Of a stretch of DNA of 33,139 bases, positions 3,985 to 27,204 are shown one piece after another. Under the pieces are notes generated by a model. It saw only the letters and a list, made by a program, of their open reading frames with translations, was not told where the DNA came from and did not search any database. The number at the start of each line of letters is the position of its first letter. Within the stretch, counting starts at the first letter, position 1. A program made the translations under genes and the position numbers. The DNA comes from an uncultured Elusimicrobiales bacterium (GTDB taxonomy: Bacteria > Elusimicrobiota > Elusimicrobia > Elusimicrobiales > Elusimicrobiaceae): assembly GCA_944326765.1 (NCBI GenBank), contig CALVFE010000015.1, positions 1-33,139 on the forward strand. Direction: 5' to 3'.

Positions 3985-4557
3985 TTAGGGTACGTTATCA
4001 AACAAATATAAAGAGTATATACCCCAACTACCGTCCTGGGATTGTTTTTTGGTGAGATATTTACACCAATTTTCTTCTTCATTCTTTCCAGTTGTAGCGC
4101 CGCAAAAGTGCTTTCCCGTTGAAAGTGTTATATAGGAAATTAAACGAGGTTCTTTATCGGTAAGACACGCAACAAAATTTGCTTCATCATATGCAGCGTT
4201 AGAGACAGAAGAAAATACACATTGAAACTGCGTATTTTTCATACCAAATACCAACCCGTTATTTGTCGTAAACATAGGCTGCATATCCGATGGAAGAGAA
4301 ACATCTAAAACACTAAAATCAAAAGAATATTTTCCATTTGCCAATTTGTACACTTTTTGCGCCCGATAAATAGCCGCTGTTAAGGTTGTTAATTGGGTAA
4401 AACGGGCTTTTTTAACCGCTTTTTTAACCGCTTTTTCGTACTGTGGCAAGGCCACCGCTGCCAAAATACCGATAATTAATACCACGACTAACAACTCTAT
4501 GAGCGTAAATCCGGCGTGTTTTCCGCCAGAGAATGATTTTTGATAAATTTTATTCAT
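3985..4557 (-). CDS. Type IV pilin-like / pseudopilin protein A
   Basis: A prepilin-type protein of about 190 residues. The 16-residue leader ends in G followed by FTLIELLVVVLIIGILAAVA, the class III signal cut by prepilin peptidase, with Glu at mature position 5. The hydrophobic helix continues into LPQYEKAV, then carries a 4-residue duplication (KKAVKKAVKKAR) caused by a 12-bp tandem repeat absent from the other two pilin-like genes here. The C-terminal globular part has four cysteines. No assembly genes are nearby, so it is an orphan minor pilin or pseudopilin. The ATG at 4557 is chosen. A TTG at 4563 is in frame, but neither has a ribosome binding site; a GATAAA box 8 nt upstream suggests a leaderless message. 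Confidence 0.9.
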   Translation of the reverse strand: MNKIYQKSFSGGKHAGFTLIELLVVVLIIGILAAVALPQYEKAVKKAVKKARFTQLTTLTAAIYRAQKVYKLANGKYSFDFSVLDVSLPSDMQPMFTTNNGLVFGMKNTQFQCVFSSVSNAAYDEANFVACLTDKEPRLISYITLSTGKHFCGATTGKNEEENWCKYLTKKQSQDGSWGIYSLYLFDNVP

Positions 4558-4565
4558 AAGCAAAA

Positions 4566-9858: not shown

Positions 9859-9913
9859 GGAGGCCTAAAAAAACCTAGGTCTTTTTTTCAAGGCTGCATA
9901 GGTCTAAAGGCCT
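9859..9913 (+). promoter_or_regulatory. Shared regulatory element upstream of exported protein 9975
   Basis: It contains GGAGGCC (9859), TAGGTC (9876) and the inverted-repeat core ATAGGTCTAAAGGCCT (9898-9913; AGGTC, 4-nt spacer, GGCCT). The same three parts at nearly the same spacing lie upstream of the ankyrin-like gene at 15570 (GGAGGCC to core 38 versus 39 bp). The last two parts also lie upstream of the gene at 11046. A -10-like TATGAT starts 25 nt past the core (9938-9943), placing the core around -43, the position of class II activators. Confidence 0.6.
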
Positions 9914-9974
9914 CTGTTTTTTTGAGAATTGATTTATTATGATATGGATAAGCAGGAAATTACCGGAGGATATT

Positions 9975-10493
9975 ATGAAACTAAAAAAGTTTTTTGCGTT
10001 GGTTGCCGTACTGGCGTTTTCCAGCACCGTTTTTGCGGGAAATTCTTCTAGCAATAGTGCTTTGATTGAAGAATCCGTTTCTGCCGCAGCTTCCGCGGTA
10101 AATGAAGAAGAAGTCAGCCCGCAAGTATTAAAAAACACCCAGCAAGCACTTACGATAGGTCTAATGGTTTTTGATGCACATCGGGATTTGAATTCTATGA
10201 CAGACGCAGACAAATCCATTGAAAAAGCATTGGAAACCCAAATTCCTGCTATCTTAAACAAAATTCAAAATACTTCTGATGAAGTATATGAAGAACTGGA
10301 ACCGGCCTTGACCAATTTAACCGATCTGTTGCTGCAAAACCAAACCGTATATCCGGCACAGACCGTTGATAAAGAAACCGGCGTATATATGACTATGATT
10401 ACAGCCATCGTCTATGCCCAGGGAAAAGGATTGCTGTTGGGAAAAGTGGCCAACATTCTAAGCGCCGAATTACAAGCCGCCATGGCGGAATGA
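9975..10493 (+). CDS. Small exported protein of unknown function
   Basis: A 172-residue product of no family I recognise. It begins with a classical Sec signal peptide: basic MKLKK, a hydrophobic core, and a cut site ending STVFA-GN near residue 21. The mature part is acidic and helical with no cysteines (SALIEESVSAAASAVNEEEV, then amphipathic stretches) and ends in AELQAAMAE. It is probably periplasmic or secreted. The ATG at 9975 is chosen because GGAGGA precedes it by 5 nt and the signal peptide then starts cleanly; an upstream ATG at 9939 would spoil it. It is monocistronic with a strong terminator, and shares its upstream element with two other exported-protein genes in this window. Confidence 0.85.
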   Translation: MKLKKFFALVAVLAFSSTVFAGNSSSNSALIEESVSAAASAVNEEEVSPQVLKNTQQALTIGLMVFDAHRDLNSMTDADKSIEKALETQIPAILNKIQNTSDEVYEELEPALTNLTDLLLQNQTVYPAQTVDKETGVYMTMITAIVYAQGKGLLLGKVANILSAELQAAMAE

Positions 10494-10902: not shown

Positions 10903-10933
10903 AAAGACCTATATTTTATATAGGTCTTTTTCT
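10903..10933 (+). terminator. Terminator-like hairpin, partly overlapping a regulatory repeat
   Basis: AAAGACCTATAT (10903-10914) pairs perfectly with 10918-10929 and runs into TTTTTC. It would end a transcript from the promoter at 10621 if the first T run is read through. Its right arm also supplies the TAGGTC half-site of the regulatory element upstream of 11046. Confidence 0.6.
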
Positions 10934-10959
10934 ACTCAATCAAATAGGCCCAAAGACCC
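10921..10959 (+). promoter_or_regulatory. Shared regulatory element upstream of exported Cys-knuckle protein
   Basis: TAGGTC at 10921 and the core ATAGGCCCAAAGACCC at 10944-10959 (AGGCC, CAAA, GACCC) lie 23 bp apart. A -10-like TAGACT starts at 10983, 24 nt past the core, matching the geometry at 9938 and 15592. Confidence 0.55.
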
Positions 10960-11045
10960 TTTTCAATAAAGTAAAATTTGTTTAGACTACAAATATGGAA
11001 TAATACTGTTCTGACTTTATATGAGCAGTTCCTATTGGAGGAAAA

Positions 11046-11951
11046 ATGAAAATTACAAAATGGATTACCGCCGCCTTTGCCGTTGCTGTATTAATGAGCC
11101 CGGCATTTGCCCAATATCAAGATCCTCATTTTAAAGAATATTGGAAAGAAGGCAAACACCTTTCGACCGCTATCGAGCGCGCCGCTATTAAAGCCGCACA
11201 GGAACATAAATCTTCCGTATGTTCCCAGTGTGGCGAAGCCTATACCATTGATGAAAAATATCACGGCTTGAAACACGAATGCGCCGCAACCAATAAAAAT
11301 GTTGCCAAAAACGCCGTCTGCTGCCGCTGCGGAGAAGAAATCAAACCCGGTCAGCATTGTGCAGCCGCCGGATATATTGCACTCTGCACCGCTTCGGAAC
11401 CAAACACAGCGGCTCCTGAAGTACACGCCGTGGCTGATTGCTGCCCTCAATGCGGCAAAGCCTATACCATTGATGAAAAATATCACGGCTTGAAACACGA
11501 ATGCGCCGCAACCAATAAAAATGTTGCCAAAAACGCCGTCTGCTGCCGCTGCGGAGAAGAAATCAAACCCGGTCAGCATTGTGCAGCCGCCGGATATATT
11601 GCACTCTGCACCGCTTCGGAACCAAACACAGCGGCTCCTGAAGTACACGCCGTGGCTGATTGCTGCCCTCAATGCGGCAAAGCCTATACCATTGATGAAA
11701 AATACCACGGCTTGAAACACGAATGCGCTAAACAGCAAGAAGAACCCCGCTATTGTATTTATTGCGGAGAATTAATTAAGAACAGCAATCAAAAATGCGC
11801 CGCCTCAAAACGAATCGTTTGTACGACGTCCTGCCCGGACTGCGGAGCAAATTTGCGGGATTCTAAAAACCTTTCTCCTGACGGAGTACACCACTGCCGA
11901 TTTAAAACCAGAATCAAACCGGCAGCTCCCAAAATTACCCCCGACAAATAA
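11046..11951 (+). CDS. Exported cysteine-knuckle (zinc-ribbon-like) repeat protein
   Basis: A 301-residue protein with a Sec signal peptide (hydrophobic core ending SPAFA-QY, about residue 22). After a short linker it has seven cysteine modules. Long ones run CSQCGEAYTIDEKYHG through LKHEC, short ones are CRCGEEIKPGQHC, and the final ones are CIYCGELIKNSNQKC and CPDCG through HHC. Each has CxxCG and a distal HxC, QHC or QKC, as in zinc ribbons, yet the protein is predicted to be outside the cytoplasm, where disulfides or metal capture are alternatives. A 74-residue block is repeated twice with identical DNA (222 bp) plus a partial third copy. The start has GGAGGA 5 nt upstream. It is monocistronic, with the shared upstream element. 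Function unknown. Confidence 0.88.
   Translation: MKITKWITAAFAVAVLMSPAFAQYQDPHFKEYWKEGKHLSTAIERAAIKAAQEHKSSVCSQCGEAYTIDEKYHGLKHECAATNKNVAKNAVCCRCGEEIKPGQHCAAAGYIALCTASEPNTAAPEVHAVADCCPQCGKAYTIDEKYHGLKHECAATNKNVAKNAVCCRCGEEIKPGQHCAAAGYIALCTASEPNTAAPEVHAVADCCPQCGKAYTIDEKYHGLKHECAKQQEEPRYCIYCGELIKNSNQKCAASKRIVCTTSCPDCGANLRDSKNLSPDGVHHCRFKTRIKPAAPKITPDK
11238..11728 (+). repeat. Perfect 222-bp tandem duplication inside the Cys-knuckle gene
   Basis: Units 11238-11459 and 11460-11681 appear identical base for base. A third partial unit (11682-11728) matches over 47 bases with a single T to C change. The unit is in frame (74 codons) and carries one long and one short cysteine module, so copy number can change without breaking the protein. 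Confidence 0.93.
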
Positions 11952-13550: not shown

Positions 13551-14018
13551 TTAAGGAAGGGTATAGATTCTGGTTGAACCTGGAATCAGCTCTCCGCCAA
13601 ATGATTTACAAACATACTCGGCGGTTCCTTCGGTATATGCACGGCATATGCGAGCGCCATTGTTGTATTTAATCAAATAATAATTAGTGTAAGGATTATT
13701 AAGAAACCCGGCCACACTATTTTGCCCATCTACATTCAGTTGAAATTCAAAGTTTTTAAAACGATAATAAGATTTTCCTTCAATCTCCGAATCGCTTACG
13801 GGAAGGGTAATGTCCAACTGATCCAACGTTTTGGCATAAGAGCCGTTCGCCATATAATATACGAGCTGCGCCTGATACAAGGCGTTCGTCATCGCCATCA
13901 GATTACTGTAGCGGGATTTGGCAACCGCTCGCTCATATTGCGGCAACGCTACCGCCGCCAATATCCCAATAATCAAAACTACCACCAACAACTCTATCAA
14001 CGTAAAACCTTTTTTCAT
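13551..14018 (-). CDS. Type IV pilin-like / pseudopilin protein B
   Basis: A 155-residue prepilin with a 4-residue leader MKKG cut before FTLIELL, Glu5 present, and the hydrophobic helix ending AVALPQYERAVAKSRYS. The globular part has two cysteines (RICRAY and YVCKSF), which could form the C-terminal disulfide loop of type IV pilins. The N-terminal 30 residues are nearly the same as in pilins A and C, but codons differ at most degenerate positions, so the similarity is held by selection and not by recent copying. The start has GAGGGG 6 nt upstream. Upstream lies a leader hairpin shared with pilin C. No assembly genes are adjacent. Confidence 0.93.
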   Translation of the reverse strand: MKKGFTLIELLVVVLIIGILAAVALPQYERAVAKSRYSNLMAMTNALYQAQLVYYMANGSYAKTLDQLDITLPVSDSEIEGKSYYRFKNFEFQLNVDGQNSVAGFLNNPYTNYYLIKYNNGARICRAYTEGTAEYVCKSFGGELIPGSTRIYTLP

Positions 14019-14892: not shown

Positions 14893-15570
14893 TTATAAAT
14901 AAGAAGCGTTTTCGTGGAAGAACGAGATCACGCGATCCATTCCCGGCGCCGCAGCATTATCCCGCGCTGCCTGCGCGATGGTGCGGCCGCTGCCGTCTTT
15001 ACTCAGCTCAATGACCACAGCCGCTTCCGTTTGAGCGACTTCCGCTACGATACCGCCCTTATCCAATTTGGATTTTACTGCCATTATTTTTTCATAGATT
15101 TCCGTATAAGGAAATGCAATACGAAAAGTATCCGCCCGGCCGTAGTTAATTTGAGTTTGTACGGGGATTTCGCCCAACTGATTGCGCTGATTCATCATCT
15201 GACGGATCTTGATTTTATAATCGTTCGGATAAAAATGACGCAGCTCCCGCGCCAAAGCCTGGAAAGTTTGCGCGTTGCGCGCGACATGAAACACATTATT
15301 GCCGTTTTTGCCAATGTGAAGCAGAAACGTTCCCGTTGCGGCTTGTTTCCCATATTTTAAAATGGCAGTCACGTCGCCGTTCTGCGCGGCCGTAAAAACC
15401 GGCGTGTCGCCAAATTCGTTTTCTTTATTTAAGTCCGACGAGGAAAGCGCACGGGTCAAATACTCATGTACCAGCTGCTGACGGCGTTCCTGACGGGCAT
15501 CAACGGACGGAGCCGCGTTCACCACCGAAACCATCAAACAAACTACTAAAATAAAAAGAATGTTTTTCAT
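14893..15570 (-). CDS. Exported ankyrin-repeat-like protein
   Basis: A 225-residue protein with a Sec signal peptide (MKNILFILVV onward, cut near VVNA-AP at residue 19). The mature region has ankyrin-like units: EFGDTPVFTAAQNGDVTAIL near residue 52, GKNGNNVFHVARNAQTFQAL near residue 87, and NQLGEIPVQTQINYGRADTF near residue 130. The first matches the ankyrin pattern best, the others are degenerate. The C-terminal region has another GSGRTIAQAARDN unit. Such proteins act as binding scaffolds; the partner is unknown. The start has AAGAGGTAA upstream. It is monocistronic with its own terminator, and the promoter region carries the element shared with genes 9975 and 11046. Confidence 0.85.
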   Translation of the reverse strand: MKNILFILVVCLMVSVVNAAPSVDARQERRQQLVHEYLTRALSSSDLNKENEFGDTPVFTAAQNGDVTAILKYGKQAATGTFLLHIGKNGNNVFHVARNAQTFQALARELRHFYPNDYKIKIRQMMNQRNQLGEIPVQTQINYGRADTFRIAFPYTEIYEKIMAVKSKLDKGGIVAEVAQTEAAVVIELSKDGSGRTIAQAARDNAAAPGMDRVISFFHENASYL

Positions 15571-15616
15571 AATTACCTCTTACTTAGAGTATCGCTTTTA
15601 TGGCGTATTTTTACGA

Positions 15617-15670
15617 GGGCCTTTGGGCCTATTTCAAGCGGAATTTAGACCTATCTTTTTTTGGGCCTCC
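15617..15670 (-). promoter_or_regulatory. Shared regulatory element upstream of ankyrin-like gene
   Basis: On the minus strand, in order: GGAGGCC (15670-15664), TAGGTCTAAA (from 15653) and core ATAGGCCCAAAGGCCC (15632-15617; AGGCC, CAAA, GGCCC). Offsets of 17 and 38 bp from the first block match the element before gene 9975 (17 and 39). A GATACT -10-like box begins 24 nt beyond the core. Confidence 0.6.
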
Positions 15671-26692: not shown

Positions 26693-27199
26693 TTAAATAG
26701 GATTGCCTTCTCCTTTAAACATTTTGCACCATTTTTCACTTTCATAACAGACAATCGTATTAGCTGAACCTTCACACGTCTCGTATTCCAGCAGATACTT
26801 GCGTTCTAAGTTATTCCCGTCAAAATCTCTTCCGTCCCCTTCCATGCGGGCTGCAATCACATTCTCGGTTCCTGGGCAACGGCTGCCCCATCTAAAACCG
26901 GTGTTTATATAGCACCAGTCCTTGTTGCAACACACCTCTTCTTCCCCCGTCCAAGAGCAAGTTAGCCCGGCCGGCAGTTCTATGCCAAGATCTTCGTTCT
27001 TCTTCTCATATACGGCATCCGCCCCGTTTGCCAAAATAAACAGCTGTTTTTGCTGATTCATATAGCGTAACATCTGTACCGCTTCGGCAGCACGGGATTT
27101 TTCAACGGATTTTTCATATTGGGGCAGCGCAACAGCGGCTAAAATGCCGATAATCAATACCACTACTAACAATTCAATTAGCGTAAAACCTTTTCCCAT
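26693..27199 (-). CDS. Type IV pilin-like / pseudopilin protein C, cysteine-rich
   Basis: A 168-residue prepilin with leader MGKG cut before FTLIELL and Glu5 present; the helix ends ALPQYEKSVEKSRAAEA. The globular part has eight cysteines, including an adjacent pair (TCSW, VCCNK, WCY, RCP, TCE, VCY, WCK), far more than pilins A and B, so several disulfides are likely. The ATG at 27199 is chosen because AGGAGG then sits 5 nt upstream; an in-frame GTG at 27202 is too close. A leader hairpin and T-tract promoter shared with pilin B lie upstream. Confidence 0.92.
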   Translation of the reverse strand: MGKGFTLIELLVVVLIIGILAAVALPQYEKSVEKSRAAEAVQMLRYMNQQKQLFILANGADAVYEKKNEDLGIELPAGLTCSWTGEEEVCCNKDWCYINTGFRWGSRCPGTENVIAARMEGDGRDFDGNNLERKYLLEYETCEGSANTIVCYESEKWCKMFKGEGNPI

Positions 27200-27204
27200 C
27201 ACAA

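Follow-up and report, generated by a model that had tools for sequence, protein, structure and literature searches.

Knuckles with Cys4 or Cys3His ligand sets are regarded as chiefly cytoplasmic building blocks, and the question raised by the gene at positions 11046–11951 (+) is what an array of seven such modules might do once exported. The gene lies in the window (the whole 33,139-nt stretch of DNA analysed here), which belongs to a genome of Candidatus Avelusimicrobium (Elusimicrobiales; a 1.49-Mb draft of 75 contigs, 87% complete), and is present in one copy within that genome. It encodes an exported cysteine-knuckle array protein (CKN) of 301 aa, and a Shine-Dalgarno-like GGAGG stands before it in the sequence (11038–11042, +). 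The initial annotation had proposed that the product is exported, and the N-terminus agrees with this: a predicted Sec signal peptide (MKITKWITAAFAVAVLMSPAFA followed by Q; 11046–11111, +) has a hydrophobic core and then an AxA site, with neither lipobox nor twin arginine in its sequence, and the pattern is repeated in relatives, all of which carry a signal peptide where their start is intact. The seven CxxC modules (residues 59, 92, 133, 166, 207, 237 and 263) alternate between long and short, as had been described before, in the order H-Q-H-Q-H-Q-H, where H is the long module CxxC-x10-H-x3-H-x-C (e.g. CPQCGKAYTIDEKYHGLKHEC) and Q is the short-spaced four-Cys module CxxCG..QHC..C (e.g. CCRCGEEIKPGQHCAAAGYIALC). 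On the forward strand they map to 11220–11282 (H1, residues 59–79), 11319–11387 (Q1, residues 92–114), 11442–11504 (H2, residues 133–153), 11541–11609 (Q2, residues 166–188) and 11664–11726 (H3, residues 207–227), followed by a C-terminal Q+H pair with a 3-residue linker (11754–11897, residues 237–284).

A profile of the Q-H unit found relatives in 32 of 66 genomes of Candidatus Avelusimicrobium, leaving about half of the genomes of the genus without the family, and none outside the genus among the 100 genera of the phylum searched. Reading the equivalent chromosomal place in genomes without a profile match added two further diverged members (L070 and L071), and a peptide-pattern scan of 84,980 species gave matches in Elusimicrobiales and in one ‘uncultured bacterium’ record. 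An origin in phages, plasmids or viruses was rejected, no relatives being found in phage or plasmid collections or in IMG/VR; PHROG matches were weak, to families without known function. The family genes occupy two conserved chromosomal sites. Site A reads Lon, ClpP, an exported helical protein, one to three family genes and glutamine synthetase, with a secretin/pseudopilin operon then adjoining in several genomes, and site B reads UvrA, YbaK, a family gene and an RDD protein; several of these neighbour names are our reading of the sequences, with glutamine synthetase and a pilin checked against Pfam. In the window the exported helical protein of site A (Exp4) is encoded at 9939–10493 (+), with a probable true start at 9975, and its place between ClpP and the knuckle gene is conserved in many Avelusimicrobium genomes. 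The window also holds three scattered genes for type IV pilin-like proteins that carry an N-methylation motif (3985–4563, 13551–14018 and 26693–27202, all on the minus strand), each single and apparently outside any pilus operon.

The initial annotation had left open whether such a protein would be metal-binding or disulfide-rich, and of these the metal array is the part that we favour for the CKN family, on sequence evidence. Each module keeps four Cys/His ligands, one of which is His in the H modules, and no ligand column (C, C, C, C and C, C, H, C) varies across the 27 units aligned. Where relatives differ by the gain or loss of a Cys, the residue is an additional one and not a ligand (columns from misaligned modules were set aside). 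In one relative (L081) the fourth Q ligand has changed from Cys to His, and modules of the form CxxC-C-HxH or C-C-C-H occur in three others (L070, L071 and L087). The total number of Cys is odd in 16 of 40 mature proteins, an approximate number obtained with a crude cleavage rule, and some members with a single pair of modules have seven. VKOR was found in none of 66 Avelusimicrobium genomes and DsbB in none of 41, and DsbA passed the cut-off in one of 66, while control genomes were positive. Partial DsbA-like matches (about 320 aa) were set aside; the one that was read, L094, is an exported, thioredoxin-like protein with only one Cys in its CPYG motif, and no dithiol oxidase. This protein is present in some Avelusimicrobium genomes. 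It is because of the conserved ligands, the Cys-to-His swaps, the odd Cys totals and the failure to find DsbB or VKOR that metal is favoured over disulfides. We consider it unlikely that CKN is instead a disulfide-rich repeat protein, its Cys paired and holding no metal, made as a protease-resistant surface or secreted protein of the gut. Such a protein would likewise be exported and Cys-rich, CKN does carry extra Cys beside ligand Cys where disulfides are possible, and the predicted extracellular proteases (trypsin-like and matrixin-like) that appear to be co-regulated with it (see below) would make protease resistance useful; at the same time, H modules built of three Cys and a conserved His, frequent odd totals, swaps at ligand positions and the near absence of DsbA, together with the missing DsbB and VKOR, all argue against pairing. 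If CKN does bind metal, the metal is most likely zinc, which is the usual occupant of such Cys4 and Cys3His knuckles, with iron as a possible alternative.

Structure prediction of one unit, which had been proposed as a check, was informative locally and gave no significant match to a known structure. In the AlphaFold models, both free of metal, the modules are predicted with local confidence (mean pLDDT of 81 in the unit and 80 in the protein), and the pTM values of 0.41 and 0.31 are low as expected for a beads-on-a-string layout. The C-terminal Q+H pair is the best-predicted region of the CKN model (pLDDT blocks of about 88–96), and residues 36–55, N-terminal to the modules, are modelled as a helix. 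Searches with Foldseek and VIA found no significant PDB match for the unit or for the full model; the weak fold matches, for the most part with zinc domains (LIM, RING, ribbon), were below significance and were discounted as evidence, and PDB zinc-finger matches (Aart, SALL4) were dismissed as low-complexity CxxC similarity with little aligned past the CPxCGK motif. The window protein CKN itself falls under every Pfam and NCBIfam cut-off. It scored 23.7 bits with PF07191 (cut-off 25), 14.7 with PF13240 (cut-off 25) and 11.8 with PF13248 (cut-off 27), and its best NCBIfam matches were far below their cut-offs (e.g. 20.1 against 125), one of them, to a ‘seadornavirus dsRNA-binding’ family, being a low-complexity CxxC hit. 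Most of the family members scanned show weak zinc-ribbon matches in Pfam, 10 of 13 to Zn_Ribbon_1. A search of open-licence papers found no description of the family, of an exported expandable array or of the promoter class described below.

The middle of the CKN gene is repeated in tandem with an offset of 222 bp, and positions 11236–11482 equal 11458–11704 base for base, an exact repeat of 247 bp that exceeds the length of one unit and is far beyond chance. The claim that two units are identical in DNA thus stands for the units at 11236–11457 and 11458–11679 (both +), but not if the unit is taken to start at 11226, in which case the copies differ at 11228, 11231 and 11235. A partial third copy (11680–11728, +) has a single change, as had been noted; the change is synonymous (T11483/C11705, codons TAT/TAC) and the copy diverges at 11729. 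The exact repeat backs the proposed recency of the expansion; it is the most recent case of duplication seen in the family. Could the perfect repeat be an artefact of draft-metagenome assembly, the true gene having some other number of units? The exact repeat is longer than the usual short read, and contig breaks or gaps fall inside a family gene in 5 of the 32 genomes that have one, against about 1.7 expected (P about 0.03; genome and contig numbers were rounded and gene length was a rough estimate, so that the excess is only suggestive). On the other hand, the flanking marks are not alike among the three H modules, assemblers mostly collapse such repeats and seldom create them, and the closest relative (L032_8, in genome G035) also has seven modules in units that have diverged. 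We therefore do not regard seven modules as an oddity of the assembly, and an artefact seems quite improbable; it would bear on the duplication alone and leave the family untouched. The copy number in CKN taken from this assembly alone is nevertheless insecure, given a draft genome and the breaks and gaps inside family genes.

Among the relatives the number of units is clearly variable. Complete members have 2 to 8 modules, so that unit number differs between species through lineage-specific duplications, and both the signal peptide and the repeats, which the initial annotation would have expected to be missing from homologues if its reading were wrong, are carried by the relatives. When Q-H units with a sister in the same gene were compared, 24 of 29 were nearest to such a sister, which shows that duplication (or homogenisation) took place repeatedly and separately in many lineages. 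At the same time, dN/dS values of 0.14–0.55 between pairs of relatives indicate that the proteins are under purifying selection. Some paralogues carry a third type of module (D, CxxCG..CPxDPDVxC), some carry GGDPHN linkers, and in some, Tyr-rich helical repeats stand in for knuckles. Three of the last kind (L041:2129–2794, L044:8681–9397 and L045:2024–2743) combine a single pair of knuckles with repeated Tyr-rich helices of the form LLxQAEALLQxDRDxHxGYAxHDLxYYYxLL, an unnamed repeat.

These features bear on a reading in which the family serves as a scaffold for adhesion or host interaction, the knuckles being metal-stabilised beads and selection acting on length and variability and not on storage. 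The range of 2 to 8 units, with duplicates recurring lineage by lineage, resembles the variation of repeats in surface adhesins, and the exchange of knuckles for Tyr-rich helical repeats, the GGDPHN linkers and the secretin/pseudopilin operon that adjoins the locus in several genomes fit the same idea. However, the proteins are short (about 200–450 aa), no cell-wall or membrane anchor motif was recognised in them and no adhesion domain was detected, and we think it rather doubtful that adhesion is their role; this judgement overlaps with the scaffold part of the explanation that we prefer, an exported metal-binding array.

The region upstream of CKN offers a further view of its function. With up to two mismatches, the element TAGGYCYAAAGRCYCT is found upstream of 38 of 41 family genes, and in 34 of these 38 a –10-like TANNNT lies exactly 22 nt past it. 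Before CKN the element reads TAGGCCCAAAGACCCT (10945–10960, +) and the –10-like TAGACT (10983–10988, +) keeps the exact 22-nt distance, which would put the transcription start some 7 nt beyond TAGACT. Further upstream, a perfect 12-bp inverted repeat followed by a T-run (10903–10929, +) is terminator-like and carries TAGG boxes, and similar inverted pairs precede many relatives; a reading of it as part of an RNA leader was dropped, and the element is taken to act at the level of DNA, because the –10 box is downstream of the element. Among 318 other neighbouring genes, the element at no more than one mismatch occurs only before Exp4 (16 genes), and Exp4 of the window has its own variant at 9899–9914. 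In eight genomes, sites at one mismatch number 4–14 each, compared with 0–1 for a reversed control, and the composite of element, 21–23 nt and TANNNT has more than 100 exact matches in 61 genomes, nearly all of them Avelusimicrobium, with none for the reversed control. Other sites are found in genome G000 (C43:9126, C4:22391, C2:3430, C2:33547, C4:35686 and C1:15818).

The genes behind the element encode mostly signal-peptide proteins: ankyrin-like, TraB/ChaN-like, trypsin-like and HEAT-repeat proteins, a matrixin-like metalloprotease and unknowns, as well as a guanylate-kinase-like locus and a glycosyltransferase-like gene. The element looks like the mark of an activator regulon of secreted proteins, and the genes behind it suggest a secreted-protease regulon. 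Examples are L098:336–1466, L099:1549–2664, L106:453–1466 and L150:1–1956 (exported TraB/ChaN-like, trypsin-like and matrixin-like proteins) and a HEAT-repeat gene (L095). The window itself holds another, an exported protein of 225 aa with a weak ankyrin match (14893–15570, –) and the element at 15616–15631 (–); in three genomes (G024, G076 and G030) its relatives have the element too. In several genes the start lies only some 8 nt beyond the –10 box, corresponding to near-leaderless mRNAs. Activators that touch RNA polymerase usually sit directly beside the –35 box, and we infer binding of an activator from the spacing, since a 17-nt spacer would put the –35 box against the element. No recognised metal-homeostasis gene is among the regulon genes found, so a role as a metal store draws no support from the regulatory partners of CKN.

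Taken together, the sequence evidence leads us to put the probability that CKN is an exported metal-binding array at roughly 0.55, a figure that spans storage and scaffold roles jointly. CKN would be exported by Sec and would fold into small knuckles that are independent of one another and flexibly strung together, with one metal ion (most likely Zn2+) bound in each by four Cys/His ligands, as Cys4 sets in Q and D modules and Cys3His sets in H modules. The linkers are free to vary and modules are added by in-frame tandem duplication, so that binding capacity would scale with the number of units. CKN and about ten other exported proteins are probably induced together, by an activator that would bind directly upstream of a weak –35 box. 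The most likely role of the protein is to buffer or store metal outside the cytoplasm, or to act as a metal-stabilised binding scaffold. A more specific version is tentative: a genus-specific extracytoplasmic zinc reservoir, its capacity tuned by intragenic duplication, might be co-induced with secreted proteases, among them predicted zinc enzymes, through an activator site not described before (TAGGYCYAAAGRCYCT-N22-TANNNT).

Exported arrays of variable length across a genus would represent a new design for handling metal outside the cytoplasm, or for building structural beads, in bacteria whose genomes did not yield the usual disulfide system. In this uncultured gut lineage the common promoter delimits a regulon of exported proteins, so that transcription mapping could be used to test the role.

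How does CKN compare with known metal-binding proteins? Metallothioneins are short, cytoplasmic and bind their metal as a cluster, whereas CKN is exported, longer (301 aa) and modular; the likeness would be one of working, and CKN matched no metallothionein family. Bacterial examples such as SmtA and MymT are small Cys-rich metal binders capable of buffering (PMC7558416). Csp1, an exported copper storage protein, has a Tat signal and forms a four-helix bundle, each monomer binding 13 Cu(I) (PMC7558416). Here too the likeness is only in how the proteins may work, in that an exported protein rich in Cys would have room for many metal ions beyond the cytoplasm; CKN differs in its Sec-type signal without twin arginine and, in the model, in having separate CxxC knuckles and no helical bundle of Cys. 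Closest in kind are the zinc ribbons and double zinc ribbons (PF13240, PF13248, PF12773 DZR and PF07191 Zn_ribbon_6), with which CKN shares the CxxCG spacing and tandem Cys/His sets. Zinc-ribbon domains are mostly cytoplasmic, with one or two per protein, while the CKN family has arrays of 2–8 knuckles behind a signal peptide and its own HxC and QHC signatures. A zinc-ribbon site consists of two CxxC-type knuckles in a beta-ribbon fold; a CKN module has one CxxC and two more ligands that stand singly, and the models contain no strands other than short ones. Judged by sequence, then, the type of knuckle appears to be a known, zinc-ribbon-like one, and what appears new is its use in an exported, expandable array under a genus-wide class of promoter.
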